From Desulfatibacillum alkenivorans DSM 16219 (lineage in GTDB: Bacteria > Desulfobacterota > Desulfobacteria > Desulfobacterales > Desulfatibacillaceae): 64,000 bases of DNA. How positions within the stretch are numbered: the first letter of the stretch is position 1; each line of letters begins with the position of its first letter. Of the stretch, positions 3,681 to 22,652 are shown one piece after another. The position numbers and the translations under genes were made by a program. The stretch covers positions 62,001 through 126,000 of the forward strand of contig NZ_FQZU01000014.1 in the NCBI RefSeq assembly GCF_900142135.1. Reading direction: 5' to 3'. A model generated the notes under the pieces. It searched no databases and was not told the origin of the DNA. It saw only the letters and a list, made by a program, of their open reading frames with translations.

Positions 3681-4369
3681 GCAAGTCGATTGTTTTTTAT
3701 GTGGAAGGTCCCTCGGAGCGGGAATTTGTTAACGAGATTATTGGACCGCATTTGAGCACTTTGGGAATCCCATGGCATAAACCGATACTAGTGGCAAACA
3801 GCGTTCGCAAAGATCGCACTTCACGTGGTGGAGTCAATAAATATGGCCCTATAAGGAAGGATTTGAGAAGGTTGTTACATAGGCAGGGGGATAATTACAT
3901 TATCACAACCTTGATAGATTATTACGGGAGGCCAAGTGACTTCCCGGCTCCAGACGCACCTCTTCCAATAGGAGCTACTCCCTTGGAAAAAGCATTGGCC
4001 GTAGAAAATGCTTGGGCTCAGGACATAAATGATTCACGCTTTCTCCCGTTCTTGTTCCTGCATGAATATGAAACCCTCATTCTGAGTGATCCCAACTCAT
4101 TGCTCACTGCATATCCAGGTGAAGAAGACGCGATGACCGCTCTTGTCCAAGACACGGCCGGTTTTGAAAACCCGGAAGACATCAATGATAGTCCTATTAC
4201 CGCTCCATCCAAACGGATCATTCGGATATTTGAGGCGCATAATTTACGTTATGACAAAGTGACCGGTGGAGCCCTGGCGGTTCTTGAGTTAGGGTTGGAT
4301 GCCATACGCCAAAAGTGCCCGAAATTTAACTGCTGGCTCACTATGTTGGAATCACTTGCTCCAAACTGA
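3677..4369 (+). CDS. DUF4276 family protein (TOPRIM-like partner of the ATPase)
   Basis: 230 residues. The N-terminus has VEGPSEREF with Glu10 in the position of a TOPRIM glutamate, followed by a TLIDYYG stretch that may supply an acidic metal ligand and an HEYETL segment near residue 125. DUF4276 proteins are usually encoded next to OLD-like ATPases, as here (4-nt overlap). The expected role is the nuclease or effector half of a two-protein defence module, but no activity can be shown from sequence. The gene is visibly more AT-rich than pglZ beside it, which fits an inserted cassette. Its stop codon overlaps the ribosome-binding GAGGA of pglZ, so it has been fitted tightly into the BREX operon. 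Confidence 0.75.
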   Translation: MSKSIVFYVEGPSEREFVNEIIGPHLSTLGIPWHKPILVANSVRKDRTSRGGVNKYGPIRKDLRRLLHRQGDNYIITTLIDYYGRPSDFPAPDAPLPIGATPLEKALAVENAWAQDINDSRFLPFLFLHEYETLILSDPNSLLTAYPGEEDAMTALVQDTAGFENPEDINDSPITAPSKRIIRIFEAHNLRYDKVTGGALAVLELGLDAIRQKCPKFNCWLTMLESLAPN

Positions 4370-4379
4370 GGATTCAGGG

Positions 4380-6977: not shown

Positions 6978-6979
6978 TT

Positions 6980-9010
6980 ATGGACGATGCTCTTGACCGG
7001 AAGGTGACGGACGTTTTCGCGGGGAAGGTGGTCCGCAAGGATTTGGTGCGGAAAATCAAGGTCGGCGCCAATGTTCCCGTGTTCGTGTTGGAATATTTGT
7101 TGGGCAAGTATTGCGCCACCGATGATCCGGCGGCCATCGACGCCGGCATGCGCGTGGTGAACAACACCCTGGCTGAAAATTTCTGCCGCCCCGAGGAAGC
7201 CAACAAGGCCCAGGCGCTGGTCAAGGAAAAGGGACGCCACACCTTCATCGACAAAATCAAGGTCCGCTACCTGGCGCAGGATGACAAATACTGGGCTGAA
7301 CTGGTCAATTTCGGGAACAAGTACCTCCATGTCCCGGACCGATTCGTCCGCGAGTTCGACCGCCTTCTCATGGGTGGGGTATGGGCTCAGGTGGAAATCC
7401 GCCATGAGTACGACGAGGAGATGAAAGGGAGGCGTAGTCCCTTTTGGGTGGAGCAGATCACGCCGATCCAGTTGGCCCATTTTGAACTGGATGAATACCG
7501 CCAGGCCAGGGCCAGGTTCACCTCCGATGAATGGGTGGACCTTCTTGTCCGCAGTGTGGGACTGGAGCCATCTCAGTTTGATCGACGTCTTAAATTGCTG
7601 TTTCTTCTGAGGCTGGTGCCCCTGTGCGAAGGTAATTACAACCTCGTTGAACTTGGACCGAGAGGCACTGGCAAATCTTTCGCCTACCAGGAATTGAGCC
7701 CTTACGCCATTCTGCTCACCGGTCCCACCACCGTGGCAAATCTTTTCTACAACATGGCATCCGGTAAAATGGGCTTGGTCGGTCTTTGGGACGCCATCGG
7801 TTTTGATGAAGTGGCCGACCTGCAAAAAATGCCCAAGGAAGTGGTGACCACACTCAAAACCTACTGCGAATCCGGTTCCTTTGCGCGTGGCAAGGAATCC
7901 CTGAGCGGCCAAGCCTCGATTGCCATGTTCGGCAATACCAACCAGCCGGTTGAGGTCATGGTCCGGTCATCTCATCTGTTCATGCCCATGCCGGATGTGA
8001 TTCGAGACGACCTCGCTTTTCTGGACCGTATCCATGGATACCTTCCCGGGTGGGAGGTGCCGAAAATGCGCATGGAATTTTTCACCGACCATTACGGATT
8101 CGTGGTGGATTACCTCGCCGAAGCCATGCGCGTTCTTCGCCGACATAACCACACCGAGTTGGTGGACAAGTATTTTTCCTTTGGGGATCACCTGAACGCC
8201 AGGGATGTGAAGGCCGTCAGAAAATCAGTGTCGGGGTTGGTCAAGCTCATTTATCCGGAAGGCGATGTGACCAAGGACGAATTGTCGGAGCTTCTTGGTC
8301 TTGCACTGGAATGTCGGCGCCGTGTCAAGGAGCAGTTGAAGAAGATCGGGGCCTTCGAATACCACCAGACCTCGTTTTCCTATCGGGACAAAGAAACAAC
8401 CGAGGAAACTTACGTCGGTGTGCCAGAGGAAGGCGGCCGCAACCTCATATCCACGGACCCGTTAGCGCCGGGCTGCCTGTATACTGCGTCCGTGAATCCC
8501 GAGGGCAAGGTGGGCCTATATCGCATCGAGACCGGCGTATCCTCGGGCACCGGCAAACTCAAACTGGCCGGCGGGTTGCAAAGCCATATGAAGGAATCCG
8601 CTCAACGCGCATTCGCTTTTCTTCAAGGACACAAGGTTCCCATGGGAATCGCAAGCGTGTTCGACACGACGGACTTTCATGTCGAAGCTATCGACCTGCT
8701 CGGCAACAAGATAATTTGCGAGGCGGGCGTAGCCTTTATTGTCGCAATCTATTCGGCCATCAAGAAAGCCCAAGCCATGCCCGGACTCGTGATCCTCGGC
8801 GACCTGAGCATCCAGGGTAATATCAAGGCAGTGCAATCCCTGGTCGAACCGCTCCAAATGGCCATGGAAAACGGAGCAAGGCGCGCGTTGATCCCCCTGG
8901 AGAACAAGCGAAATTTCCTGGAGGTCTCGGGCGACATCATGGAAACCGTCGATCCGGTTTTCTACTCCGATCCTCAAACCGCAGCCATGAAGGCGCTGGC
9001 TTTGAAATGA
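6980..9010 (+). CDS. brxL: BREX Lon-like AAA+ protein BrxL
   Basis: 676 residues. The N-terminal region (VTDVFAGKVVRKDLV) is typical of BrxL. The AAA+ domain has Walker A GPRGTGKS at 226-233 and a Walker B-like GFDEVADL with Asp276/Glu277. The C-terminal ~180 residues have the fold pattern of a Lon protease domain (GLVILGDLSIQGNIKAV). Where Lon has its catalytic Ser this protein has Glu581 (ICEAGVAF), and the Lys position appears to be Val622, so proteolysis by the Lon dyad looks unlikely. BrxL is needed for phage exclusion in type 1 BREX. ATG at 6980 is preferred; a TTG at 6974 overlaps the pglZ stop. Confidence 0.92.
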   Translation: MDDALDRKVTDVFAGKVVRKDLVRKIKVGANVPVFVLEYLLGKYCATDDPAAIDAGMRVVNNTLAENFCRPEEANKAQALVKEKGRHTFIDKIKVRYLAQDDKYWAELVNFGNKYLHVPDRFVREFDRLLMGGVWAQVEIRHEYDEEMKGRRSPFWVEQITPIQLAHFELDEYRQARARFTSDEWVDLLVRSVGLEPSQFDRRLKLLFLLRLVPLCEGNYNLVELGPRGTGKSFAYQELSPYAILLTGPTTVANLFYNMASGKMGLVGLWDAIGFDEVADLQKMPKEVVTTLKTYCESGSFARGKESLSGQASIAMFGNTNQPVEVMVRSSHLFMPMPDVIRDDLAFLDRIHGYLPGWEVPKMRMEFFTDHYGFVVDYLAEAMRVLRRHNHTELVDKYFSFGDHLNARDVKAVRKSVSGLVKLIYPEGDVTKDELSELLGLALECRRRVKEQLKKIGAFEYHQTSFSYRDKETTEETYVGVPEEGGRNLISTDPLAPGCLYTASVNPEGKVGLYRIETGVSSGTGKLKLAGGLQSHMKESAQRAFAFLQGHKVPMGIASVFDTTDFHVEAIDLLGNKIICEAGVAFIVAIYSAIKKAQAMPGLVILGDLSIQGNIKAVQSLVEPLQMAMENGARRALIPLENKRNFLEVSGDIMETVDPVFYSDPQTAAMKALALK

Positions 9011-9246: not shown

Positions 9247-10788
9247 ATGGCTCAAAAACAAGTAGGTGCTCGGACAGAAGGCGATGTCGTCCAGGGTCTC
9301 TTCTTTTGGCAACAGGCCGCAAAGCTGATGATACCAGAATCGCTGGTTATTCGGGTAACCATAGAACATGATGAAGCAGACGGAGTTGACGACGTAGCGG
9401 TGTTCTATGGTTCGGACGGGATAAATGCCGGCGGATGGCAATGTATGGCTGACTACTATCAGCTCAAATATCATGTCGACAACAGTCATGCCTATAGTTC
9501 AGACGCTATTGTTGACCCTGCGTTTACCAAGGCGAAATCTTCACTTCTTCAGCGATTCCACAACGCTTACAAAAAGCTAATCGCTACAGATGGTTCATTC
9601 AGATTGCATTTGGTTTCAAATTGGCAGTGGAGAGATGATGATCTTTTGGCAAAATCCATCAGAGAGTCTGATGGTGCATTACCACAATCATTTTTCACGC
9701 TCGGCCCGAGAAGTGATTTAGGCAAAATCCGTGAACAATGGCGCAAACATCTTGATCTTGACACGGAGGCTTTTAAATCCTTTACGAAAACATTACGTTT
9801 TCATCTTAACTATTTTGGCCGGCAAGATTTAAAGGAATGGGTGAATGATAGATTGGCACGTGCTGGTCTACGCATTCCTCCTGCCGATCATGCGGCATGC
9901 CCATATGAGAGTCTAGTTCAAAAGTTTCTGATGGATGGACCAAACTCTTTCGACAGGAAGACATTCTTTGAAATGTGCCGTCGTGAGGAACTCATTGACC
10001 TAAAGGATAGCCCAACACGGAATGACAAAGTAATCGGCATCAGAAGTTTCATTCGCTTTGCAGAGAACATCGAAGAGGAAACTGATAAATTCATTTGCGT
10101 AAGCGATCTTTTTGAAGGCCGACACCCAATTGATGATAGATCATGGAGAATTTCGACTTCACGGATATTGTCATTCCTGTCTGATAGAGAATTGACAAAG
10201 GCTCTGCGATCAAAGGATCATCGACTATTACTTGAATGTCATGGATCATTCGCCTTTTTGGCAGGATATGAAATGAGCAGAAACTCCGGCAGTCAGGTCT
10301 TTCCTGTTCAAAAACCTCGAATGGAAACATGGAAACCAGACGGAAACTCCGCATTCGAAGCACCAACAGTTGTCCTAACCGAAATAAAATATGAAGACGA
10401 TGGTGAAATCGCAGTATCGTTTTCGTTTACGCATGGTATATTGGGTGATGTAGAATCATATTTCCAAAATACCGGGATAAAAATAAGCAAGATTGTTAAC
10501 ATTCAACCTAAAGGCGGTCCTGGTGGTGATAGCCTCAAAGGTGCAGATCACGTTTTGCAAGTTGTTGACGAGGTTGTTGAGCTGTTGCGGAATTTAAGGT
10601 CCAAGGCATCGGATGTAATTCACGTATTCGGTAGTACGCCAAATGCTTTCATGTTTTTTTTGGGTCAGTACCGAAATGCATTGGGCCGCTTGCAACTTTA
10701 TGAATACGACTTCGGGTTTGAAAGACACTGTACCTATTCACCGAGCATTCTCGTACCCAAAGACGTAAACCCAGATCATGGAGGATAA
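9247..10788 (+). CDS. cap4: CBASS effector Cap4: DUF4297-type nuclease fused to SAVED domain
   Basis: 513 residues. The N-terminal ~200 residues look like the DUF4297 dsDNA endonuclease domain of Cap4: Asp48/Asp49 (GVDDVAVFYG) and the Q72-L73-K74 triad form a PD-(D/E)xK-like active site. The C-terminal ~220 residues fit a SAVED sensor (IHVFGSTPNAFMFFLG, then YEYDF and YSPS near the end). When SAVED binds the cyclic oligonucleotide made by the neighbouring synthase, Cap4 degrades DNA and the infected cell dies. It is first in a four-gene operon, with GGAG 7 nt before the ATG. Codon use is clearly more AT-rich than in the BREX genes before it. Confidence 0.88.
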   Translation: MAQKQVGARTEGDVVQGLFFWQQAAKLMIPESLVIRVTIEHDEADGVDDVAVFYGSDGINAGGWQCMADYYQLKYHVDNSHAYSSDAIVDPAFTKAKSSLLQRFHNAYKKLIATDGSFRLHLVSNWQWRDDDLLAKSIRESDGALPQSFFTLGPRSDLGKIREQWRKHLDLDTEAFKSFTKTLRFHLNYFGRQDLKEWVNDRLARAGLRIPPADHAACPYESLVQKFLMDGPNSFDRKTFFEMCRREELIDLKDSPTRNDKVIGIRSFIRFAENIEEETDKFICVSDLFEGRHPIDDRSWRISTSRILSFLSDRELTKALRSKDHRLLLECHGSFAFLAGYEMSRNSGSQVFPVQKPRMETWKPDGNSAFEAPTVVLTEIKYEDDGEIAVSFSFTHGILGDVESYFQNTGIKISKIVNIQPKGGPGGDSLKGADHVLQVVDEVVELLRNLRSKASDVIHVFGSTPNAFMFFLGQYRNALGRLQLYEYDFGFERHCTYSPSILVPKDVNPDHGG

Positions 10789-10790
10789 AA

Positions 10791-11942
10791 GTGGAACTGC
10801 CAACTGATTTTAAATCTTTTCTCACAGCAATTAGGCCAACAGAAAACCAGCGGTCTGAATTAAAAACAGGCCACACAACATTGCGGTCGAGACTAAAAGA
10901 TTTCCAGGAGCTTAAGGATGTTTACATAAGTGATTTCCTACAAGGAAGCTATCGCAGAGCAACCGCTGTTCGGCCAAAGGGCGAGAAACGATCTGACGTA
11001 GATATAATTGTTGTTACGAAATTGCATGAGGAAGAATACACTCCTGATGCTGCAATGGATATCTTTGTACCATTTCTTGATAAATACTATAAAGATAAAT
11101 GGCAGAGACAAGGACGATCATTTGGTATTTCCTTGTCATATGTGGATTTAGACTTGGTGATAACTTCTGCTCCTTCCGAAGCTGAAATAGGAGCGCTTCA
11201 ATCGGAATCTGTCACTTCAGAAACTGATATTGCTGAAGCCAAGGACTGGCGTTTGCATCCTTCTTGGCTTTCGTCGGATAGTAGGTGGTTGGTTGAGAAT
11301 GCACAGGAGTTGTTGGCAAAAGCCAAATCAGAGAGTGAATGGAAACTAAGTGCCCTTCGCATCCCCAATCGTGAAGCCGGGAATTGGGAAGATACACACC
11401 CTCTCATGCAAATCCAGTGGACCAGAGACAAAAACGCATCCACCAATTATCATTTTGTCAATGTGGTAAAAGCCTTAAAATGGTGGAAGATTGAAAACTA
11501 CGATGAGGCCAAGCACCCCAAAGGTTTTCCTCTTGAACGAATTATCGGTGACTGTTGTCCAGATGGCATAACCTCCGTTGCAAACGGCATTGTGACCACC
11601 CTTGAATCTATTGTTTCAAATTACATGGCCTATTCTATCACGAACAGTAAACCGATACTCCCTGATTATGGCGTCCCGGGCCATGATGTTCTTGGTCGCC
11701 TAAGCTCTGAAGATTTTAACATTTTCTACAATCAGGCCGAAGAAGGAGCAAAAATCGCCAGACGGGCCTACGACTCACAGGACCGCAATGAAAGTGGCAA
11801 CCTGTGGCGTAAATTACTGGGTTCTAAATTCCCCGCACCTCCAGATAATGGAGGAAAAGCAAAGGCGGGTTATACCACGCCAGCCGCTGCTGCTGCTCCA
11901 GGAGGTGGAAGATTTGCTACAACTGGAGAGTATCTTGACTGA
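10791..11942 (+). CDS. cdnD: CBASS cyclic oligonucleotide synthase (CD-NTase, probably CdnD-like)
   Basis: 383 residues, nucleotidyltransferase fold. The catalytic pattern is complete: Gly52-Ser53, Asp69-x-Asp71 (SDVDIIVV), then Asp119/Asp121 (YVDLDLVI). It makes a cyclic di- or trinucleotide on infection, which activates Cap4. The start is GTG at 10791, 2 nt after the cap4 stop and 6 nt behind a GGAGG. Cap2 neighbours imply that its C-terminus is conjugated to a target. The tail is Pro/Ala/Gly-rich and reads GGRFA (372-376) followed by a seven-residue extension TTGEYLD. I recall GGRFA-like ends as the mature tail in related synthases, so the extension is odd. Clade assignment is tentative. 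Confidence 0.87.
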   Translation: MELPTDFKSFLTAIRPTENQRSELKTGHTTLRSRLKDFQELKDVYISDFLQGSYRRATAVRPKGEKRSDVDIIVVTKLHEEEYTPDAAMDIFVPFLDKYYKDKWQRQGRSFGISLSYVDLDLVITSAPSEAEIGALQSESVTSETDIAEAKDWRLHPSWLSSDSRWLVENAQELLAKAKSESEWKLSALRIPNREAGNWEDTHPLMQIQWTRDKNASTNYHFVNVVKALKWWKIENYDEAKHPKGFPLERIIGDCCPDGITSVANGIVTTLESIVSNYMAYSITNSKPILPDYGVPGHDVLGRLSSEDFNIFYNQAEEGAKIARRAYDSQDRNESGNLWRKLLGSKFPAPPDNGGKAKAGYTTPAAAAAPGGGRFATTGEYLD

Positions 11943-13791
11943 AATAAAAATGCCCGAGACTATTCGTGTTGGTGCGCACAATGCTCAAGCCATTCCCGGT
12001 GTCGAATTTTTCGATGAGCCATTTTTAAAGCAGTTCAAGGGAGCTTCTTTTTGGGGTTTCGCACTTCGCCTGCAAATCGGAGCATCTTCAGACATTGTTC
12101 CTCAAACAACAGAATGGTTCGCTTTAATAGAGGATAGCTATCCTTTTGGAGACATTTGGGTGTATCCGTCCAAGGCTAACGGGATTGACGTTACCTTTCC
12201 CCATCAAGACCTCAACTCATTTGGTAATGAAAAACAACCTTGGAGGGACGGTAAGCTTTGCCTTGTTAGTCCTGTCCAGGGGCTCGGGAGAATAGCAGGA
12301 GGGAAAGACCCGATAGGGAATTATGAGGAAAGGTTTCGATGGCATTTATCACGAGCAATCACTTGGTTAGGCTGTGCGGCCACAAACTCTTTAATGCAAG
12401 ATGGCGATCCGTTCGAGACGCCATATTATGCATGTTCTTCGCGGCGGCATATAGTTCATAATGAATCTTCGGCGACCTTCCATCTTTGGGCACCATACAA
12501 CGATGGCTCTTTAGGCATAGTTGTATTCCATGAGGTATTTAAAAACGACAATAGGGACTTGGCTGTCAGTTTTGAGACCATGGATGGCATTCCAATAAGA
12601 AGAACTCGACCATACTCAGAGGAAAATCACGGCATAAATAGTCGCCATCGGCGGACTGGATTTTGGTGGTTGTGGAAAGCTCCGATCGTTCTTCCTCCCT
12701 GGCAAGCTCCAACGAATTGGGGTGAGCTTAGAGAGATAGGAGATCAACAAGACATAGATGTTGATCAAGCATTGAGGTCTATTGCTTCCCTCGTCCGAGG
12801 GGAGGCGGCAACTGTGCTATTGATCGGTTATCCAATGCCGCTAATATGTGGTGAGGGGGCATGTGAAATCTACTGGCAAGCCATCCGACTGCCAAGACTT
12901 GAATCGACAAAACAAGCACCCAAGGGTGGATACCTTCCAACTGAAAAAAATTTTTGGGGGCGCGATCGTAGGCAAGCATTTATGGATCAACATAAATTTG
13001 CATACTTGAAAACCGAAAATTGGCATCCCGATAGAATGCAAGCGAGAGGACGTTTTGGTTCTACAATGTGTAAAGCGAAGGTTGCCCTCATTGGATGTGG
13101 TGCATTAGGTTCAATAATTGCCGAGCTATTAGTTAGAGAAGGAGTAGAGGATATTATGCTTATAGACGGCAAGCACCTCAGTGCACACAATCTTGTACGC
13201 CATACTCTTTATGGTGATGTAATAGGAAAAAACAAAGCTGATGCTTTGGCTGAATGCCTATCATTATCCTATCCTTTCACCAAAATAGTTTCAATAAACA
13301 ATTATTTATCTTCATCATCCGATCAAGTTGAATCTCTCCTAATGGATCGTAAAATAGTGTTAGATTGTACTGGGTGCGATGAAATTATACAAATTCTGGA
13401 AAATGTCTGGTGGGAGATGCCTAAATTATTCATATCGTCATCGGTTGGCTATAAGGCGCAACGCACTTTTATCTTTAAGGCAATACGCCATCAATTTCCT
13501 TCAGAAGAGTTCCGGCGTATTTTGGAACCAATACTAAATGAGGAGCGAAACAATTGGGCTGAAAATGGTGAAACCTTAGAAGGACCTGGTTGTTGGTCAC
13601 CCTTGTTTCCTGCACGTCTTGATGATTTGCTACTTTCGGCAACATCTTGTATCAAGGTAATTGAGGAATGTTTATTGCAATTCCGTCCGGATGCCAAAGT
13701 AGTTGTTTTTGAACAATCGTTTTCAAATGATATGTTTACTGGACTAACTCGTAAAGAATGTTCGCTCTTATCTTCTATGGAGGGCGAGTGA
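11914..13791 (+). CDS. cap2: CBASS Cap2: fused E2-like / E1-like (ThiF) conjugating enzyme
   Basis: About 625 residues. The first half is E2-like, with Cys116 in GKLCLVSP as candidate E2 cysteine. The second half is a ThiF/E1 adenylation domain with the nucleotide-binding loop GCGALG at 394-399, LIDGKHLSAHNLVRH after it, and Cys560 (GPGCWSP) as candidate E1 cysteine. Cap2 activates the C-terminus of the CD-NTase and attaches it to a target, priming the synthase. The frame is open to an ATG at 11788, but a perfect AGGAGGTG at 11900-11907 sits 6 nt before TTG 11914, so translation probably starts there, inside the synthase gene. ATG 11950, just past the synthase stop, is the alternative. Confidence 0.85.
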   Translation: MLQLESILTEIKMPETIRVGAHNAQAIPGVEFFDEPFLKQFKGASFWGFALRLQIGASSDIVPQTTEWFALIEDSYPFGDIWVYPSKANGIDVTFPHQDLNSFGNEKQPWRDGKLCLVSPVQGLGRIAGGKDPIGNYEERFRWHLSRAITWLGCAATNSLMQDGDPFETPYYACSSRRHIVHNESSATFHLWAPYNDGSLGIVVFHEVFKNDNRDLAVSFETMDGIPIRRTRPYSEENHGINSRHRRTGFWWLWKAPIVLPPWQAPTNWGELREIGDQQDIDVDQALRSIASLVRGEAATVLLIGYPMPLICGEGACEIYWQAIRLPRLESTKQAPKGGYLPTEKNFWGRDRRQAFMDQHKFAYLKTENWHPDRMQARGRFGSTMCKAKVALIGCGALGSIIAELLVREGVEDIMLIDGKHLSAHNLVRHTLYGDVIGKNKADALAECLSLSYPFTKIVSINNYLSSSSDQVESLLMDRKIVLDCTGCDEIIQILENVWWEMPKLFISSSVGYKAQRTFIFKAIRHQFPSEEFRRILEPILNEERNNWAENGETLEGPGCWSPLFPARLDDLLLSATSCIKVIEECLLQFRPDAKVVVFEQSFSNDMFTGLTRKECSLLSSMEGE

Positions 13792-14276
13792 TGCATCATG
13801 AATGGCGAACTGATTGTGGCGCTTACGGAATGTCAATAACCAAAAATGTTTGGGATTCCATTAAACGTGAATGTATAAAGTCAATTAATAATGAAATTGG
13901 GGGGATTCTAATTGGCTACTATACAAATGAAAACAGAATAGCTGTTGTTTGTGAAGCTACTCCACCACCAAAGGACTCACAGCAAGGAAGAACATGGTTT
14001 TGGAGGGGTATTACTGGCTTGCGGTCACTTCTTCTTGAGAGATGGGATCAGAAACAACGAACATATTACGTTGGAGAATGGCATTACCATCCAGCCAAGG
14101 TAATCGAACCCAGCATTGCAGATTTAAGACAGATGGAAAGTATAAGCAGATCAAAACGCTACTATTGTAATGAACCGATTCTTATAATCGTTGGAAAAGA
14201 AGGAAAAACCGATACTCCTGTAAGAGCTTTTGTCTTTCCAAGAGATCAAAAGCGTATTGAATTTGGTAAGGTGTAG
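13791..14276 (+). CDS. cap3: CBASS Cap3: JAMM/Mov34 isopeptidase
   Basis: 161 residues with a complete JAMM zinc-protease signature: Glu35 (NEIGGILIG), His98-x-His100 (EWHYHP), Ser108 and Asp111, with the expected ten-residue spacing between the second His and Asp. Cap3 reverses the Cap2-made bond between CD-NTase and target and so restrains priming. ATG 13791 overlaps the cap2 stop (TGATG), so the two are coupled; an upstream in-frame ATG at 13758 lies inside cap2 and is less likely. Last gene of the CBASS operon. Confidence 0.88.
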   Translation: MHHEWRTDCGAYGMSITKNVWDSIKRECIKSINNEIGGILIGYYTNENRIAVVCEATPPPKDSQQGRTWFWRGITGLRSLLLERWDQKQRTYYVGEWHYHPAKVIEPSIADLRQMESISRSKRYYCNEPILIIVGKEGKTDTPVRAFVFPRDQKRIEFGKV

Positions 14277-14676: not shown

Positions 14677-15405
14677 ATGGCCGATAGCAAACCCTCGAAA
14701 AACCGCAAAGCCGCTGACACCCTCACCCCTACCAAACGGGAATCCGAACCCGTGGACATGGCCATGGTGGACAAGGCGGTGACCCACATCAACGAGATCG
14801 CCAACAAAACCATGTACAAGGGTTCCATCGAAATTGGGGAATACGTTCTTGACAAATTCTATGGTGGAGATGTCGAACAGGCGTCTTCCCGGAATCCGCA
14901 TAAGCCGGCCAGTTATCAAGCACTGTGTAAGAGGGAGGACCTGGTCGTGGCCCCGGCCTGGTTGTCCGTGGCCGTCCGAGTAGCGGCCCAGGAGAGATGG
15001 TTTGCAGGGAATAATATCGACATCAGCGGCTTGTCCTACACGCACAAGGCCGAACTCGCGAAGATCGACAACGGGGCCAAGAAGAAATCCTTGGTGAAGA
15101 AGGTGCTGGATAAGGGCCTGTCCTCTCGGCAGTTGGCGGATGAAATCAAGAAGATAACTGCAAAGACAGGAGCGAAGGCACTGTCTGCCCCCCAGGTGAA
15201 AGCGAAACTGGAGAGAACCACCCGATTGTTGTCCGATGACCGCCTGCTGGATTTCCTCTCCGACACCACAAAACTGAAAAGCCTTCGTGATGAAACCAGG
15301 ACTGCCCTGAAATCCGAGGCTGAGCAATTGGTGGAATCCATGGAAGAGGTGATCGGCCGATACAAGGAATTGATCCAGGTGCTTGAGAAAAAGGAAGTCA
15401 AATAA
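14677..15405 (+). CDS. Hypothetical protein with HTH-like segment and C-terminal coiled coil
   Basis: 242 residues, not recognised. The N-terminal ~25 residues are Lys/Ser/Thr-rich and probably disordered. The middle (residues ~80-110, PASYQALCKREDLVVAPAWL) is hydrophobic helical. Residues ~145-165 (KGLSSRQLADEIKKI) look like a helix-turn-helix of ParB/YhcG-type proteins. The C-terminus is a charged helix likely to form a coiled coil. GGAGGAAG sits 4 nt before the ATG. A DNA-binding regulatory or segregation role in the mobile element is possible but unproven. A strong inverted repeat begins right after the stop. Confidence 0.6.
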   Translation: MADSKPSKNRKAADTLTPTKRESEPVDMAMVDKAVTHINEIANKTMYKGSIEIGEYVLDKFYGGDVEQASSRNPHKPASYQALCKREDLVVAPAWLSVAVRVAAQERWFAGNNIDISGLSYTHKAELAKIDNGAKKKSLVKKVLDKGLSSRQLADEIKKITAKTGAKALSAPQVKAKLERTTRLLSDDRLLDFLSDTTKLKSLRDETRTALKSEAEQLVESMEEVIGRYKELIQVLEKKEVK

Positions 15406-15938: not shown

Positions 15939-16445
15939 TCAGATGATTCGCTCGAAAATCGGCGGAAGGGGCGGTTCCGTCTCTTCCGCCAACACAGTTC
16001 CCTTCAACCGATCGTGGTGTGGACCAAATATGAGTTCCATGCGGCGATCCAGGGATAGGCAGTTTTTCATCAGTCCTATCAAAATCATTTTGTTGGCCAA
16101 TTGTGGTCCCATCCTGGGTGGTGGGATCAAAACCTGCACATCAAAATCAGCGAACATTTGCACCCCGTTTTCCAATACAAATTTTATGGGTACGGTCTCG
16201 CCAGGTTGAACTGGAGGGACTGGGCCATAGGAATCGTCGATGGATGTGAAATATCTTACCAAACCGAAACTCCTGTCAAAAAACAACCAATTGATCATAC
16301 CCCCTTTTACATCGCGCTCTCCACGCGCACTTGATTTTCCACACTCCCTCACAATCGAATCCTGAAGATTTTTGAGTTGCCGGAAAATATGTTCGTTCAG
16401 GCCAAGGTCCATCTCTTCAACCAGCTCAAAAAAAATCGGTATCAT
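15939..16445 (-). CDS. Conserved hypothetical protein of the element (168 aa)
   Basis: Unknown family. Its start ATG overlaps the stop of the upstream helicase gene (ATGA), with GGAGGAG 5 nt upstream, so it is the third gene of the initiator-helicase operon. Residues ~80-168 include VPIKFVLENGVQMFADFDVQVLIPP and NKMILIGLMKNCLSLDRRM, a mixed alpha/beta domain. A second, frameshifted copy of its C-terminal half lies at 24160-24358, with high nucleotide identity. This suggests the gene belongs to a family of related mobile elements that visited this locus more than once. Confidence 0.65.
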   Translation of the reverse strand: MIPIFFELVEEMDLGLNEHIFRQLKNLQDSIVRECGKSSARGERDVKGGMINWLFFDRSFGLVRYFTSIDDSYGPVPPVQPGETVPIKFVLENGVQMFADFDVQVLIPPPRMGPQLANKMILIGLMKNCLSLDRRMELIFGPHHDRLKGTVLAEETEPPLPPIFERII

Positions 16446-18304
16446 GATTGCTCCTCCTCGTGATTAACAATCGTCCAAAGGTTGTAGGTTTCGGGCGGGG
16501 TGGGCATGATGAAATCGGCTGCGGACTTCTGTGGCTTGAGGTTCTGCCAAGATTTGAAACCCATTGGGAAAAACAGGTACAGGAATCTTGACGACCTGGT
16601 GATGATCGTGTCGAGCACCATCATCTCGTCGATGACCTGGTTTTGTTTCTTGAAGGTGCCGTGGGTTTTATAAAATGACGGGAACGGGGCCAGGAAAAAC
16701 ACCACCTTGGCCTCACCACCCTTGTACTGATGGATATTGGCGATGGTCAGGAAATCATTGGTGTCTGGCACCCCATGATTAACGTAATGGCCGAAGGAAT
16801 CCAGGTTGAGGATTTCCCCGAGAACCCCGGTCGCGCGCGCATTCCTGAACAAATTCTCGATGGTTGGATCGGTGTATGGGTCCGGCATCTTGTCCATTGT
16901 TCGAACAAAATCGAGTACCGCATTGAGGGCGGTGGTTAGATCATCCCCGGCCTGGTTGATGGCATAAGACAGGTTGGCGAATTTCTGAAATACATCCCGG
17001 ACCCGTTTGCCTTCATTGGAAATGTTGTCCGTAGTCCATCGGTTTTCATTGACCAGGTTGAGGACTCTCGTTGTCGTAGTCTTCCCGACCCCTGGCAGAG
17101 CCTTGAGCACGGCGGCCCATTCGTCTTTGGTTGCGGTCCCATAATGAATCTTGAGAACCACCTGTATTATATTGATAGACTTTGTTGGTTCATGGTTCTT
17201 TAGGTGTGAGATGTATGGCCATTGTTCCAGGTCCAATGATTTAACAAGGGACGAGGCATCCTTATCCTGACGAACGAGGACCACCATGTCCTTGAGGGTT
17301 ATACCGTTGGCGATATGATGTTGGATTCTGTCGATAACCCCGCGCACATGCATGTGGCGTTTGCGGTTTACAACGACGATGGGTTTCTCACCTTTGGTTG
17401 ACGAAGATTGTGGAAGAATTGGATAGCCAGGTAGGTGTTGCCGAATTTGCCCCCGGATTTCATTGGACAGATTAAGGATTTGTCTGGACAGCCGCTGATT
17501 CTTGGTCAGCATGTGACTTTCGCAACCACGCATGGCCCACAATTCGGGAAACCGCTTGTGAGATGCCCCGGCAAAACGGAACAAGGTTTGGTATGGATCA
17601 CCAGCCCCTACAAAATGAGTCCCGTGGTCTATCAGGATTTTGAGGGTCTTCCATTGGACAGCCGTTAGGTCCTGAAATTCATCCACCATGATGCAGGGAA
17701 AGACTTTTGTTAGATGTTTTGCATAATCTGGGTCCTGACAAGCGCGGTGCAACAGGAAGGGGATGTGGTCAAAATCTATGTGCCCGGTAGAGAGACAGTG
17801 AGCGTGGACATTGTTGAGGATTTTCCTTTGGGTAGGGCAAGTCTTGAGGTGTTTGCAGGCAGTGGCTAAAGAGACCCCTCGGCGCAGGTGTTGGGTGTAG
17901 ACCTTCTGAAGGAAAACCAGTTCTCCCTTGGTGGAAATTCCGGCAGCATCGGCTTGGTTCTTGATGGTTGATGCGTTGATGCCCGGTGTCAATTTTAGAG
18001 GACATTGATACCCAAGAGCCTCATGATCTGCGTTCTTGAGCAGTTTCCAGGCCCATGCATGGAATGTTGACACCCGTGCCCTTTCATGTCCGGCAGCGCC
18101 GCCCTTGAATCTGTCCTGCATGTTGACCACAGCCTTGTTTGTGTATGCTAGTAAGAGAACCCGGGGATAGCGGTCTTTTCTTGAATGTAGTATCAACGCC
18201 AGGGTTTCTGTTTTGCCTGTTCCTCCTGGTCCGCACAGGCTGACCACCGGCGCCCTGCTTCCAATAACCGCTTTTTGTTCTGGGGTAGGCTTCATTTCCA
18301 CCAT
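16442..18304 (-). CDS. UvrD/PcrA-type superfamily 1 DNA helicase
   Basis: 620 residues, shorter than chromosomal UvrD (~720). Visible motifs: Walker A GPGGTGKT at residues 25-32, motif Ia TNKAVVNM, motif II DEFQDL near residue 210, motif III GAGDPYQTLFRF, motif IV KNQRLSRQI, and a C-terminal TRSSRFLYL that corresponds to motif VI with a diverged sequence. It is ATP-dependent and expected to move 3'-5' on ssDNA. It lies between an initiator-like gene and a small unknown gene with overlaps on both sides (start overlaps the initiator stop by 13 nt). Since Rep_trans-type initiators recruit PcrA, an element-borne helicase for replication or transfer is the likeliest role; a Gabija GajB-like role is less likely because no GajA partner is present. 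Confidence 0.85.
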   Translation of the reverse strand: MVEMKPTPEQKAVIGSRAPVVSLCGPGGTGKTETLALILHSRKDRYPRVLLLAYTNKAVVNMQDRFKGGAAGHERARVSTFHAWAWKLLKNADHEALGYQCPLKLTPGINASTIKNQADAAGISTKGELVFLQKVYTQHLRRGVSLATACKHLKTCPTQRKILNNVHAHCLSTGHIDFDHIPFLLHRACQDPDYAKHLTKVFPCIMVDEFQDLTAVQWKTLKILIDHGTHFVGAGDPYQTLFRFAGASHKRFPELWAMRGCESHMLTKNQRLSRQILNLSNEIRGQIRQHLPGYPILPQSSSTKGEKPIVVVNRKRHMHVRGVIDRIQHHIANGITLKDMVVLVRQDKDASSLVKSLDLEQWPYISHLKNHEPTKSINIIQVVLKIHYGTATKDEWAAVLKALPGVGKTTTTRVLNLVNENRWTTDNISNEGKRVRDVFQKFANLSYAINQAGDDLTTALNAVLDFVRTMDKMPDPYTDPTIENLFRNARATGVLGEILNLDSFGHYVNHGVPDTNDFLTIANIHQYKGGEAKVVFFLAPFPSFYKTHGTFKKQNQVIDEMMVLDTIITRSSRFLYLFFPMGFKSWQNLKPQKSAADFIMPTPPETYNLWTIVNHEEEQS

Positions 18305-19338
18305 CCTTTCTTAGAAACAAACCGCACACGCTGGTCACGCATACGGAGGGAAGGGGTCATTAAGGGAAAGTCCTCGGGGTTTGAACACCACTGGAAGGCT
18401 GCCAGTGTGTCCTTGATGACCGCATTGAGCCTTGAGTCCTTCAGGTAGTAGCCGTGGTTGCTGGCGATACCCTTTTCCCTGAAGAACCGCCGCATTTCGG
18501 CAAGCGACATTCCTTTACAATGTCCTGGTTTGATCCCGTGGCGGGCCAATTTGGTATAGTTTGGCACCCTGAGGGAAATGTAATAGGGGATGAACTCTTT
18601 GTCCGGCGGTACGAAGGAGAAGTCATAATTCGCTAAGGATTCCACCGATGGGACGATTTTCATTTCCGAGTTATCAAACCTTGCTTCCATCCTGACGATA
18701 TTGTGGTTCTGCACCCACGCCTCTTCTTCCTTGGTTAGAATGAGTCTTCTCTTCGCCGGTTTACGGGCCAGGTTCTTTTTGTTTTTAGACAACAGGTCCC
18801 GGCTCTTGTTGTACGTGGTCAGGCGATATCTGCTGTCCAATGAATGATGATGGAAGGTTTCAGGGCAGGTATCACATGGCGCAGGGTCAATTTTACTCAC
18901 CGCCTTGGTATGATCCACCACCCACAGGAGGCGATCTTCCCCTGGTCCGAAGACAAGGTCCAAGGCCAAATGAAATTCCGACAACCTCCACCAGAACCCA
19001 TAGGATTCCGTCAGATGGTTCAAGACAGTTACCACTTCTTTATATTCAAGCGGGGCAAAGTAGGATGAGAAAAATTTGATGGTGAAAGTCGGGACCACAT
19101 GTTCATCACCAACAACAGGGAAGACTTTTACTATTTTCCGTTTGTCAGAAGTAATGAAGTCATAGGAGTAAACAAATTCTGACTTCCCCTTGGAACCTTT
19201 TTCCTTCAGGTTATTCTTATACTTCCCAATATATTTATAACCAGGGAGCCGGAGGTGTCTGTGGTCAACACTTATCCTTGTGGTACTTGTAATTGTGACT
19301 TCATCAATACTACACTTTATATGTTGTGGTAGTTTCAC
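18292..19338 (-). CDS. Probable replication initiation protein (Rep_trans/RstA-like)
   Basis: 348 residues, start GTG at 19338 with AGAGGT about 7 nt upstream. The order of features resembles phage/plasmid rolling-circle initiators of the Rep_trans or replication initiation factor type: YGFWWRLSEFHLALDL (an R-x-D-hydrophobic-D-like strand), then RYRLTTYNKSRDL, a basic stretch around residues 185-215, and IVRMEARFDNSEM (the R-x-E strand). I cannot place the nicking tyrosine with certainty. Downstream overlap with a helicase gene supports a replication role. An AT-rich hairpin region upstream could hold the origin. Alternative: a DNA-binding protein of unknown function. Confidence 0.5.
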   Translation of the reverse strand: MKLPQHIKCSIDEVTITSTTRISVDHRHLRLPGYKYIGKYKNNLKEKGSKGKSEFVYSYDFITSDKRKIVKVFPVVGDEHVVPTFTIKFFSSYFAPLEYKEVVTVLNHLTESYGFWWRLSEFHLALDLVFGPGEDRLLWVVDHTKAVSKIDPAPCDTCPETFHHHSLDSRYRLTTYNKSRDLLSKNKKNLARKPAKRRLILTKEEEAWVQNHNIVRMEARFDNSEMKIVPSVESLANYDFSFVPPDKEFIPYYISLRVPNYTKLARHGIKPGHCKGMSLAEMRRFFREKGIASNHGYYLKDSRLNAVIKDTLAAFQWCSNPEDFPLMTPSLRMRDQRVRFVSKKGWWK

Positions 19339-19908
19339 GCCTATACCTCTTTTCAGAAGGTTTGTAATTTGGTAGCTATAACCATGTTTTTTATGAATGG
19401 TTGTGAACAGGATCAGCAGTAAGTTATACTTTTATGATCGTGGTTGTAGGGAAGTCGTGCGTACTGACCCATCAATCATTCATCATAAATAAATAGGGTT
19501 GGTGGGAATTATTTATATGCGGAGTGACATATAATAATATAATGACACTCCCAGAATACCTCTTACAGCTAACAAGCCTTCAAAAAACTGCCGATACCCA
19601 TTTTTTCAAGCTGAAGACCTGCATGGCCAGCACCCCCACCCCGAGCCTCACCATGGCCCTTCACCCCGCCGCTAAGACTCCACCGTGCCCACCGTGCCCT
19701 CAATGCCCACGATCCCCGGTACGAACACCATGGCCTCGTAGCATCAGGCCGCAGCCCAGCCGTGACCCTTTACCTCAAGGGCAGTCATTTGACGGACCAT
19801 CAGTTCATGCTCAATCGTGCTGGATCGCTTCACCCGGCTTCTGGTGGGAAGGGCCGGTGCTTGGTTACCCAGAACACCGGCCTCTGCGTCGATAATAGGC
19901 TTTTACAG
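19339..19908. other. Intergenic region between initiator and transglycosylase genes
   Basis: 570 bases without a supportable gene. The part next to the initiator (19339-19560) is AT-rich and contains a hairpin-forming repeat. The rest (19600-19900) is C-rich on the + strand and open for only short stretches. Candidate site for the element's origin or for the initiator promoter. Confidence 0.4.
19521..19551. promoter_or_regulatory. Inverted repeat in AT-rich region upstream of initiator (possible origin/operator)
   Basis: GGAGTGACAT (19521-19530) and ATGACACTCC (19542-19551) pair at 9 of 10 positions around an 11-base A/T loop, about 180 bp upstream of the initiator start. Such hairpins in AT-rich DNA are common nick or binding sites for rolling-circle initiators; role inferred from place and structure only. 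Confidence 0.4.
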
Positions 19909-19935
19909 CCCCGTCCCTGGCAAACAGGGACGGGG
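19909..19935 (-). terminator. Perfect 11-bp hairpin downstream of the DpdA-like gene
   Basis: CCCCGTCCCTG (19909-19919), loop GCAAA, CAGGGACGGGG (19925-19935). It lies 13 nt after the stop of the - strand transglycosylase gene. There is no T-run on either side, so it may be a transcript-stabilising hairpin or a Rho-dependent end rather than a classical terminator. Confidence 0.55.
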
Positions 19936-19948
19936 CGTGGAGGAGGGG

Positions 19949-21091
19949 TTAATCGTCTGTGGAGACCTCTGGCGGCGTTGTGCGGCGGTAATACTCTTTA
20001 ACGCTATCATGGCCCTGCTCGACCGCAAGATGGAGCATGTCCAAGGCGCACAGGACCTTCGTTTTAGCTTCCAGGTCCAGCCAGCAGCCTTCCACGTGAT
20101 CGTATAGGATGCCCTTGCGCGCGTATCGGGCCATGCGTTCGGCAAATTGATGGATAACCTGGATATTGTAGAATCCGATCCAGTCCTTGACGGTGGCCTC
20201 TTCAGGCGGGTCATATTCACCCAGAACCGTTTCCCACTTGCCGTCGTTGTAATCCAGGAGGGGCTTCAGGCGGGCCGAGTTCCGGAATTTGCACAATTCG
20301 CCGTCCCGCCTTGGTCGCGAAGCCATGGTGTGATAATCCAGAAAACTCTTGTTCCCGAATTTGTATAGGCCAGCGCGGAAGTGCTGGAGGTATGTGGTCG
20401 AATCAAATGTAATGCGCTTGAACATCCGCATCCCCGCCGCCTGGCCGAGGACCATGACATGGGGGGCGGTCGAGGAACCGAGGAGATGGACCTTGCGCAC
20501 CCCTTGGCTATTCAGATACGACAGGGCGTAGGCGATTTCCTGCGGCCCTCCACCGCGTATTGGAAAGCCATACGTGCGGACACGAGGGTGTCGGATGCGT
20601 GGGAAATAGTCCTCAACGTCCTTTATCACCCCGTATCTGGGCTGCAAGGCGATGGCGAGTTCCACGTTGGGGCATATCTTCTCGGCCAACGGTAGCATCA
20701 TATCCCGTACCTTGATGGATTGATCCCTCTTCCAGATGTAGTCTTCCTTGGTGTCGTACTCGTCAGTCGGATAATCGAGCAGGAAGCCTACTGTGGTGTG
20801 CGTTCGGGCATATTCCAAGCAGATATCCCGAGGGTTCAGGATTAGATGCGATTTCGTTTTTCGAGGGCGCAGATGTGGGCTCACCCACACCCGGCCACCA
20901 TTCTGAAGGCATTTCAGAATCTGATACCCCCCGGAATCCGAACAGACCAATTGTTTTTTACGCAAGGCCCCCTCTCGTGAGCGCGGAAAGGGGTACTTCT
21001 GGTTGATCATGAATTGGTCGGTCAAATCAGGGGCCACCCCCTCAGTGGGGTTCATGACCGACAAATACCAGAATTTACAACGTTTATTCAT
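19949..21091 (-). CDS. dpdA-like: TGT/DpdA-like DNA (or tRNA) guanine transglycosylase
   Basis: 380 residues. A (beta/alpha)8 tRNA-guanine-transglycosylase pattern is visible: DSGGYQ at residues 52-57 (substrate loop with conserved Asp), FLLDYPTDE around residue 98 (second acidic loop), GFPIRGGGPQEI and VRKVHLLGSST in the base-recognition region, and ITFDSTTYL near 245, the position of the nucleophilic Asp. The CxCxxC zinc site of bacterial Tgt is absent, as in DpdA enzymes that put preQ0 into DNA. ATG 21091 has GGAGG 5 nt upstream and overlaps the stop of the ParB-like gene by 8 nt; the longer frame up to 21196 lies inside that gene. No other dpd genes or preQ0 synthesis genes are here. Confidence 0.72.
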   Translation of the reverse strand: MNKRCKFWYLSVMNPTEGVAPDLTDQFMINQKYPFPRSREGALRKKQLVCSDSGGYQILKCLQNGGRVWVSPHLRPRKTKSHLILNPRDICLEYARTHTTVGFLLDYPTDEYDTKEDYIWKRDQSIKVRDMMLPLAEKICPNVELAIALQPRYGVIKDVEDYFPRIRHPRVRTYGFPIRGGGPQEIAYALSYLNSQGVRKVHLLGSSTAPHVMVLGQAAGMRMFKRITFDSTTYLQHFRAGLYKFGNKSFLDYHTMASRPRRDGELCKFRNSARLKPLLDYNDGKWETVLGEYDPPEEATVKDWIGFYNIQVIHQFAERMARYARKGILYDHVEGCWLDLEAKTKVLCALDMLHLAVEQGHDSVKEYYRRTTPPEVSTDD

Positions 21092-22223
21092 CGTTTCCTC
21101 CATTTCTGTTTTGACGAATGCCCAGTTCCTGAAGAATGTGACCCAGGAGCCTGACGGTCTCATCAAGCCGTTCATATCGTTCGCAAATACCTTCATCTGT
21201 CACAGCACCCTCCGCCAGATTACCCCTGAGTTCTTCAGCGGCAGCCGCAATGTAAACACAGACCTCCATGGGAACGTTCATGTCCCTGGCAGGCTCGCCA
21301 TCGGTGTCGTTTGAGGGAGGCGGGGGCGGGGCACCCCCCTTGCCCTTCCCTCCGGAACTGGGCTCCGAATCGGCGTTGAAGGCGTTGTAGGCTATCAGGC
21401 CCGCGTGTTTAACCTTCTCTTTCCGCGCCAGCGGGCACCCACGTTTTTCTTCCAACCTTTTTAGCTCCTGGTCGATTTCTTTCCCGAGATGCTTGTGCTT
21501 TACCGAGAACCTTCTGGTTTTCTTGGTGCCCATACCCTCGGGGTAGTATTCCGCGAGTCCTTCAACCGCGAGCAGACCGATACGCTTTCCGAACCTCAGC
21601 AGCTCTCCCACGGTGTCCTCGCCGAGGCCGGTCTGTTCGTAGATAAGCGCGGTTTCGCTTACCCAGTCCTTCTTGCCCTTGCGTTTGCCACCGTGCCCAC
21701 AAACACGATCCCCAAACACCCGATGGATGTGTCTGGACGTTTTCAGAAGCCGTTGTGTGCGCTCCCAGTTCGTCATGGGCTTGCTAAATTGGGACATGTC
21801 CTGCAAATTGGCCATCAGAACCTGGGGCTCACAGACAGCGATGCCGACGATGACGCACGGAAACTCGGTTATCCCCTCTCTTTTCATGTATCGGTAGCGC
21901 CTGTAGCCGTGTTTGAGGCACAACACTCCATCCGGAAGTTCCACAAGCTCCAGTGGGTCGAGTTTCTCGGGGTCAAGGGTTTCAAAGTCGTGGTATCGGT
22001 CCTTCTTGTGTAATCGTTTCAGGACCCTTGGGATAATGAAAGCCTCCTTTTCGAGGTATAGGATTTCGTTTCCTCCGGGATAGGGGTCCAGGCCCATCAT
22101 GTTCTCCATGATGCGGTCCTTGTCCTCCTCGGTTAAGGTGTGATTGGCAAAGGCCATGGTGGCCCGCTTTTTCATGTCCGGCTTGCCGGATTTGGATTTT
22201 GTGGTTTTAGATTTCTTCGCCAT
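21084..22223 (-). CDS. ParB/Srx-like protein, candidate DpdB-like partner
   Basis: 379 residues. The basic N-terminus (many Lys up to residue 20) precedes a ParB/sulfiredoxin-like domain: LELVELPDGVLCLKHGYRRY at about residues 88-107 is the ParB box (GHRR-like motif as HGYRRY), followed by ITEFPCVIVG. A central helical region with KTRRFSVKHKHLGKEIDQEL and a Gly/Pro-rich linker (about residues 295-310) lead to a C-terminal helical tail. ATG 22223 is preferred over 22262: AAAGGA lies 7 nt upstream. The stop overlaps the DpdA-like start, so the two products are co-translated. In canonical dpd clusters DpdB is, as I recall, ParB-like and acts with DpdA. Confidence 0.7.
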   Translation of the reverse strand: MAKKSKTTKSKSGKPDMKKRATMAFANHTLTEEDKDRIMENMMGLDPYPGGNEILYLEKEAFIIPRVLKRLHKKDRYHDFETLDPEKLDPLELVELPDGVLCLKHGYRRYRYMKREGITEFPCVIVGIAVCEPQVLMANLQDMSQFSKPMTNWERTQRLLKTSRHIHRVFGDRVCGHGGKRKGKKDWVSETALIYEQTGLGEDTVGELLRFGKRIGLLAVEGLAEYYPEGMGTKKTRRFSVKHKHLGKEIDQELKRLEEKRGCPLARKEKVKHAGLIAYNAFNADSEPSSGGKGKGGAPPPPPSNDTDGEPARDMNVPMEVCVYIAAAAEELRGNLAEGAVTDEGICERYERLDETVRLLGHILQELGIRQNRNGGNDE

Positions 22224-22254
22224 AGTTCTGTCCTTTCTGTTTGGGTAAATAAAG

Positions 22255-22283
22255 AAAGCCACCGGTTTTTGGCCGGTGGCTTT
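22255..22283 (-). promoter_or_regulatory. Terminator-like hairpin in the leader (possible attenuator)
   Basis: AAAGCCACCGG (22255-22265) and CCGGTGGCTTT (22273-22283) form a perfect 11-bp stem with a 7-base loop. Read on the - strand it is followed by CTTTATTT, giving an intrinsic-terminator look, and it lies 32 nt before the ParB-like start codon. As no - strand gene is seen just upstream, it could attenuate this operon or block read-through from outside. Confidence 0.55.
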
Positions 22284-22329: not shown

Positions 22330-22598
22330 AAATGGCTTATTTAAAGAGGAAATACCCTCTTGATCCGAAAAACTTAAAAAAGATGGCTGATGGTTTCAAA
22401 TGATGGCCATCAAGGAAAGGGCCTAAGCTATTCAGCTCCCTTCTTTGACTGCTTTCAGATTGTGTGAGAATCTGTGTGTGAAAATCTTTCCAAAGCCTAC
22501 CAAAATAGGAAAAGATCGCAAAAAGACTGGAACAAAATTGGCAATGAATTCGGCAATCTATTGAAAATCGAGGAGGTTAGGAAGCCTTTGGGCCTTTG

Positions 22599-22643
22599 CT
22601 GTTAACCACTGGGTCCGCGGTTCGAGTCCGTGCTGGGGAGCCA
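22599..22643 (+). tRNA. 3' part of a tRNA-Asn gene (attachment-site scar)
   Basis: From CTGTTAA (anticodon loop, GTT at 22601-22603) the sequence continues as a tRNA 3' half. The 3' anticodon stem is CCACT, the T-arm is CGCGG-TTCGAGT-CCGTG, the acceptor 3' strand CTGGGGA, discriminator G and an encoded CCA. Upstream bases do not fit: neither AGTGG for the anticodon stem nor TCCCCAG for the acceptor stem is present. A 3' half alone is the usual product of integration into a tRNA gene, so this marks the right end of the element. Confidence 0.75.
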
Positions 22644-22652
22644 AAAAACAAC

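Follow-up and report, generated by a model that had tools for sequence, protein, structure and literature searches.

Our analysis revealed two overlapping genes on the minus strand next to the right end of an integrated element in Desulfatibacillum alkenivorans DSM 16219, within a stretch of 64,000 nucleotides (the window, to which positions refer unless a contig or locus is named). The downstream gene (19949-21091) encodes a TGT-superfamily enzyme of 380 aa with catalytic Asp52 and Asp230 and with His202; its best start is the ATG at 21091, which has a GGAGG ribosome site ahead of it. The upstream gene (21084-22223) encodes a ParB-like protein of 379 aa with a ParB/Srx-type N-domain, an HTH region and an HGGxRxG motif. 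It can be read from a GTG at 22262 (21084-22262), the likelier start being the ATG at 22223 with AAAGGACAG just upstream. Because the ParB-like gene ends at 21084 and the TGT-like gene starts at 21091, the two overlap by exactly 8 nt. The original prediction had described such an overlap between a ParB-like gene and a gene for a zinc-less TGT-like protein with the motifs DSGGYQ, LDYPTDE and FDSTTY; reading of the sequence bore this out, since all three motifs were found and the CxCxxC...H zinc motif was absent from the window protein. An 11-bp perfect inverted repeat, read directly from the sequence (22255-22283, minus strand), sits between the ParB-like gene and the attR of the element and is probably terminator-like on the minus strand.

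The element is an island of about 48 kb in tRNA-Asn(GTT), with 51-bp exact repeats at its ends and an integrase at the left end. The repeat at attR (22598-22648, plus strand) is an exact copy of the tRNA-Asn(GTT) 3' end, and the second copy (G000:C45:36630-36680, a contig of the same genome) belongs to an intact tRNA-Asn(GTT), of which it forms the 3' end, with a tyrosine integrase (Phage_integrase, 1.1e-23) alongside. An integrase and direct repeats matching the 3' end of a tRNA gene, the marks of an integrative element, are thus both present. From the positions of the two repeats follows the extent of the island with its cargo of BREX genes (4299-9010, plus strand; PglZ 4299-6977, BrxL 6974-9010), CBASS genes for a SAVED effector, a CD-NTase and an E1-E2 protein (9247-14276, plus strand), and an AbiEi/AbiEii toxin-antitoxin pair (G000:C45:40825-42602, equal to L072:7826-9603). 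The CBASS gene at 13758-14276 we take to be JAB-like by its position. Judged from these features, the element is a true mobile island that holds the pair together with BREX and CBASS, as had been supposed. A gene at 14677-15405, in the cargo region between CBASS and the replication genes, matched ParB-HTH (0.015) and PADLOC PDC-S02, in both cases weakly. The right end of the island consists of the pair and the genes for a Rep_trans-like replication initiator of the element backbone (18292-19338, minus strand) and a UvrD-like helicase (16442-18304, minus strand; Pfam UvrD-helicase 2.5e-26), which overlaps the Rep gene. Genes in the same place and order occur in D. widdelii, with 32% identity for Rep and 30% for UvrD. 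On circularisation, the pair would come to adjoin the integrase side and would be remote from the cargo. The host genome has a separate tRNA tgt and a queC of its own.

By itself the window TGT-like protein had no useful match in Pfam, PHROGs, NCBIfam, PADLOC or PDB, and a contig scan of genomes with this single sequence as query returned zero matches. Its ties to the TGT superfamily are stepwise, leading from the window protein to a relative (L007) that matches Pfam TGT at 1.8e-10, as does a further relative (L031) at 1.9e-16. A paralogue with 44% identity is encoded in the same genome (G000:C6), and another relative shows 54% identity across 145 aa; together with the distant relatives matched by Pfam TGT, these indicate that the gene is not a chance reading frame. 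The best solved structure for the family profile was archaeosine TGT (arcTGT; 1iq8) at 8.3e-11, with eukaryotic and bacterial Tgt behind at 3e-4 and weaker, and a profile comparison of the family with Tgt gave 4e-11. In a tree, Tgt, arcTGT and DpdA (DpdA side 67/89) all fell outside the family, which formed a single clade (97/100) with the window protein on a long branch. An AlphaFold model from three sequences reached a pLDDT of 45, which is too low to judge the geometry of the active site. In plain Foldseek, this model drew chiefly generic TIM barrels, DpdA (7ui4) ranking 9th, and in a second-look structure alignment nearly all of the best 50 matches were TGTs, DpdA included (Z 8.3-9.3). The predicted TGT type is supported at the level of the superfamily, to which homology assigns the protein through its clade rather than through matches of its own. 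A PUA or other RNA-binding domain was not matched by Pfam in the TGT-like proteins.

Asp52, in the D-S-G-G-Y/F loop, and the nucleophile Asp230 are conserved in every full-length family member, and the window protein and nearly all of the clade (13-54% identity) keep both together with the GGYQ loop, Gln150 and His202. The family signatures, from which L035, L019 and L015 deviate slightly, are VH[LMI]L[GA] and D[SA][ST]x[WY]; in the window protein they take the form VHLLG and DSTTY. The corresponding forms are VHLLG and DSTT in Salmonella DpdA (7ui4), HG[WFL]G and DSSxW in phage DpdAs, and VHLFG and DSASY in arcTGT. The window protein lacks the features of bacterial tRNA Tgt, namely Y[LI]MGVG, DCV[LI]PTR (forms such as YLMGVG and DCVLPTR) and the zinc site. 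Eight family members keep the latter; it is missing from the three complete ones in the window's group and also from the phage DpdAs examined. DpdA and arcTGT use preQ0, and bacterial Tgt uses preQ1. On the evidence of its residues, the active site belongs with those of DpdA and archaeal TGT, which insert preQ0. The DpdA features of a His for the Tgt Tyr and a DSxxW/Y nucleophile loop are present; since arcTGT has them too, they are not DpdA-specific and do not decide between DNA and tRNA as substrate.

Likewise, the single ParB-like protein had no useful match in Pfam, PHROGs, NCBIfam, PADLOC or PDB. Its AlphaFold model (pLDDT 51) gave no fold match, and that ParB was missing from the list says nothing. 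A profile of seven relatives did match true ParB at the N-domain, which agrees with the ParB/Srx N-domain expected of DpdB. The HGGxRxG motif is invariant, and one relative has the same arrangement and 51% identity. Over 389 genomes of the class, the profile found six strong loci (E<1e-100), all directly upstream of a TGT-like gene, and one contig-end fragment (G605). Weak matches did not extend beyond profile positions 32-141, the part that ParB-type proteins hit; Noc and ParB structures match in the same stretch, and a Spo0J-type ParB adjoining ParA reached 1.8e-5. A 252-aa ORF at the ParB position of L035 was rejected as a member of the family, its E of 0.31 not being significant against 0.94 for the best shuffle.

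Searches at the level of the phylum (Desulfobacterota) and class identified 12 TGT-like loci in 8 genomes, among them the complete genome of Desulfosarcina widdelii PP31 with three copies of the enzyme gene, and one 'Proteobacteria' MAG. No relatives of the pair were found by tblastn in phages and plasmids, nor of the proteins in viral contigs searched with three alignments and one single protein. The ParB-like gene is directly upstream in seven of the 12 loci and absent from five. Paired occurrence in other genomes, which the original prediction had anticipated, therefore holds for those seven loci and for every strong ParB-like locus and fails at the other five; on these comparisons, the pairing is conserved. 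The TGT-like gene is further accompanied by Rep_trans and UvrD genes (three loci), a DnaG-type primase (four; L031, L033, L034 and L035), a primase-like gene (L018) or a gene for a PolA-domain protein of 1582 aa (L030), and such a replication-type neighbour adjoins it in 9/9 loci with these genes on the contig. The order TGT, Rep_trans-like, UvrD recurs in D. widdelii and at the second copy in the window's own genome, where the Rep protein matches Pfam Rep_trans (E=6.4e-5). An integrase lies beside a tRNA gene at seven loci, the tRNAs of the six relatives being Ser, Glu (twice), Gln, Ala and Met. As predicted, dpdC-K were not seen beside the pair, and neither these nor BREX genes were recognised beside the relatives' loci; a search for preQ0 genes on the element loci (QueC tested) found none. 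The occurrence of one enzyme family across unrelated replication modules suggests, from context, a function connected with the DNA of the element itself.

Several of the genomes hold additional genes in these or similar neighborhoods. At L003:6790-9659 and 17408-19991 (G000:C6), the second TGT-like copy of the window's own genome has two flanking Rep_trans-UvrD pairs and an integrase, without a ParB-like gene. In D. widdelii (NZ_AP021875), the 1582-aa protein (L030:11958-16706) has a C-terminal family-A DNA polymerase domain (3.6e-43) and is encoded just downstream of a ParB-TGT pair on a tRNA-Ser island. Also in D. widdelii, a DUF5131 (Gp37/Gp68) gene (L032:7150-7911), the product of which might act on a modified base, lies directly upstream of a ParB-TGT-Rep-UvrD set. 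On contig G389:C182, a ParB-TGT pair has as its neighbour a very long gene (L088:15719-20000 and L019:1-1353) that combines the beta and beta-prime domains of RNA polymerase. This gene lies near aspS, and genes of vWA, PP2C and kinase-like type come after it; the element would appear to possess a fused RNA polymerase of its own. The MAG relative has a second ParB_N-matching gene (L036:1660-2403; 3.1e-4) directly upstream of its ParB-TGT pair. A 739-aa DpdA-like protein (L087:6750-8969, G500:C325; 2.4e-89 to the PADLOC DpdA model) is encoded beside nitroreductase-like and SMC genes, with no other dpd genes recognised on this 9.5-kb contig, and a bacterial genome (L083:1189-2271, G544) encodes an archaeosine-TGT-like protein (IHLYG, FDSSSF, CECPYC) with an ATPase gene adjacent.

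The original prediction had set the two proteins beside DpdA and the ParB-like DpdB. The TGT-like protein matched neither the PADLOC DpdA model (PDLC02807) nor PHROGs nor anything in the whole PADLOC library; the DpdA model found a true DpdA at 2.4e-89 and phage DpdAs hardly. Comparison of the family with phage DpdA by hhalign covered only 36 columns, the DSxxW loop alone, at a noise-level score. As for DpdB, the ParB-like protein had no PADLOC match, and hhalign against phage DpdB-like proteins was empty. By models, profiles and tree, the pair is placed outside DpdA and DpdB, and the TGT-like family forms a separate clade nearest archaeosine TGT. That enzyme is the closest solved sequence by profile and shares the H + DSxxY signature and, with most family members, the zinc site. 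It is a tRNA enzyme with additional RNA-binding domains, whereas the window protein has neither the zinc site nor a matched RNA-binding domain. In dpd islands, DpdB is an ATPase required for base insertion. These islands (S. Montevideo type, 7ui4) resemble the pair in TGT fold, VHLLG and DSTT signature and ParB-family partner (PMC12839542), but the pair described here matches neither the DpdA nor the DpdB model, has no recognised dpdC-K and is tied to replication genes. BRC systems (HerA/FtsK BREX-related capture, PMC12839542) likewise have a TGT in a defence context without DpdC; they differ in their partners (PglZ, DUF6079, STAND and HerA), and a DpdB homologue was not found by their authors.

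A similar gene arrangement occurs in Rosebush-group mycobacteriophages, Quesadilla and Rhodococcus phage Finch, in which a ParB-like gene is directly upstream of a TGT-superfamily gene and overlaps it (by 4 nt there), and in which DpdA has the H + DSSxW signature and no zinc motif. The predicted phage precedent was thus found: Quesadilla, Finch and Lephleur have overlapping ParB-DpdA pairs followed by queC, queD, queE and folE. The phage pairs differ in these downstream genes, in ParB-like proteins of ~200-260 aa without a profile match to that of the island, and in a DpdA of a different clade. The ParB gene of such pairs was named a possible dpdB in a 2019 paper (PMC6392294). Rosebush DNA contains dPreQ0 at ~28% of G, 7-deazaguanine-modified phage DNA is resistant to restriction in varying degree, and phages with DpdA but without preQ0 genes (7-11, Orion) show little or no modification (PMC6884629). 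ParB-domain proteins are frequently linked to DNA-modifying enzymes, and their fold can bind CTP, ATP or GTP (PMC12783734, PMC12704722).

We propose, with a probability of about 0.6, that the pair represents an element-encoded DNA-guanine transglycosylase and its ParB-like partner, which mark element DNA with a 7-deazaguanine, probably preQ0, in a DpdA-DpdB-like manner. The TGT-like enzyme would exchange guanines in DNA, by way of a covalent Asp230 intermediate, for a 7-deazaguanine base made by the host, most likely preQ0; a host source of preQ0 had been predicted, and the QueC gene is indeed present in the host. Bound to DNA, the ParB-like protein would serve to target or load the enzyme, probably in a nucleotide-dependent way. 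The element's own DNA would be marked on excision or replication with its Rep/UvrD proteins, and the mark would shield it from host restriction. Here we infer DNA rather than tRNA as the substrate, preQ0 as the base, the role of the ParB-like protein and protection as the benefit. Several points speak against marking of DNA: over the whole profile, the family is most similar to tRNA enzymes (first arcTGT, next Tgt) with DpdA at noise, DpdA and DpdB models are unmatched, five of the 12 loci are without a ParB-like gene, QueC was not found on element loci, and DpdA-only phages are scarcely modified. The original prediction had itself named best matches to tRNA-modifying Tgt with no DNA-modifying relatives, and a lack of any co-occurrence, as evidence that would count against it. 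The first came half true, since the nearest solved relative by whole-profile score is a tRNA enzyme, arcTGT; the second did not, as the two genes do co-occur.

The profile matches to tRNA enzymes (arcTGT 8.3e-11, eukaryotic Tgt 3e-4) and the Tgt zinc site kept in eight relatives would also suit an enzyme exchanging bases in tRNA or another RNA and changing host or element-expressed tRNA, with the ParB-like gene merely a neighbour. We consider this rather unlikely, given that the host already has its own tgt, that the full ParB-like profile occurs only beside a TGT-like gene, that the bacterial Tgt nucleophile motif DCV[LI]PTR is replaced, and that the zinc site is lost in window-type members and no PUA or RNA-binding domain is matched in Pfam. 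Somewhat less probable still is a service to replication or partition of the element, in which site-directed base exchange at the origin or att licenses, times or tags replication instead of giving general protection. At each of the nine loci whose contig includes Rep_trans and UvrD, primase or PolA, these genes are adjacent; the partner resembles partition proteins, and the pair lies next to attR. Such adjacency is, however, what any gene of a mobile element's backbone would show, an origin or parS-like site was not identified, and five loci have no ParB-like gene. A further reading, to which we give equally little credence, is that a ParB-like clamp directs this DpdA-separate TGT clade to specific element sites (origin or att), where the 7-deazaguanine mark is needed by the element's replication proteins. 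If true, a base modification would control the replication of a mobile element.

BREX, CBASS and AbiE on the same 48-kb island, and the TGTs known in Dpd and BRC defence systems (PMC12839542), could point to defence cargo: a deazaguanine system, either reduced Dpd-like or linked to CBASS, that would act alongside BREX and CBASS. This appears very unlikely: in relatives the pair stays with replication genes and no dpdC-K or BREX was recognised beside it, PADLOC models are unmatched, and the circular form would separate the pair from the cargo. CBASS comes with E1-E2 and SAVED genes of its own, and the pair was rejected as a part of it. The lost zinc site, the long branch and the missing Pfam TGT match of the window protein would also fit a former enzyme that now serves as a DNA-binding scaffold, which we regard as highly improbable, since both catalytic Asp, the GGYQ loop, Gln150 and His202 are kept in this protein and in nearly all of its divergent clade.

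Marking of element DNA by the pair would be of a kind that is already known; as far as the literature searched shows, the TGT clade, the type of element and the link to swapped replication modules appear to be new. DNA with 7-deazaguanine has so far been described from phages and dpd islands, and a separate TGT clade established next to the replication genes of tRNA-integrating elements would add a third class of carriers. Such a clade could account for the survival of restriction by these islands. Furthermore, a ParB-like partner that occurs at full length only beside the TGT-like enzyme would provide a clean system for the role of the ParB family in DNA modification.
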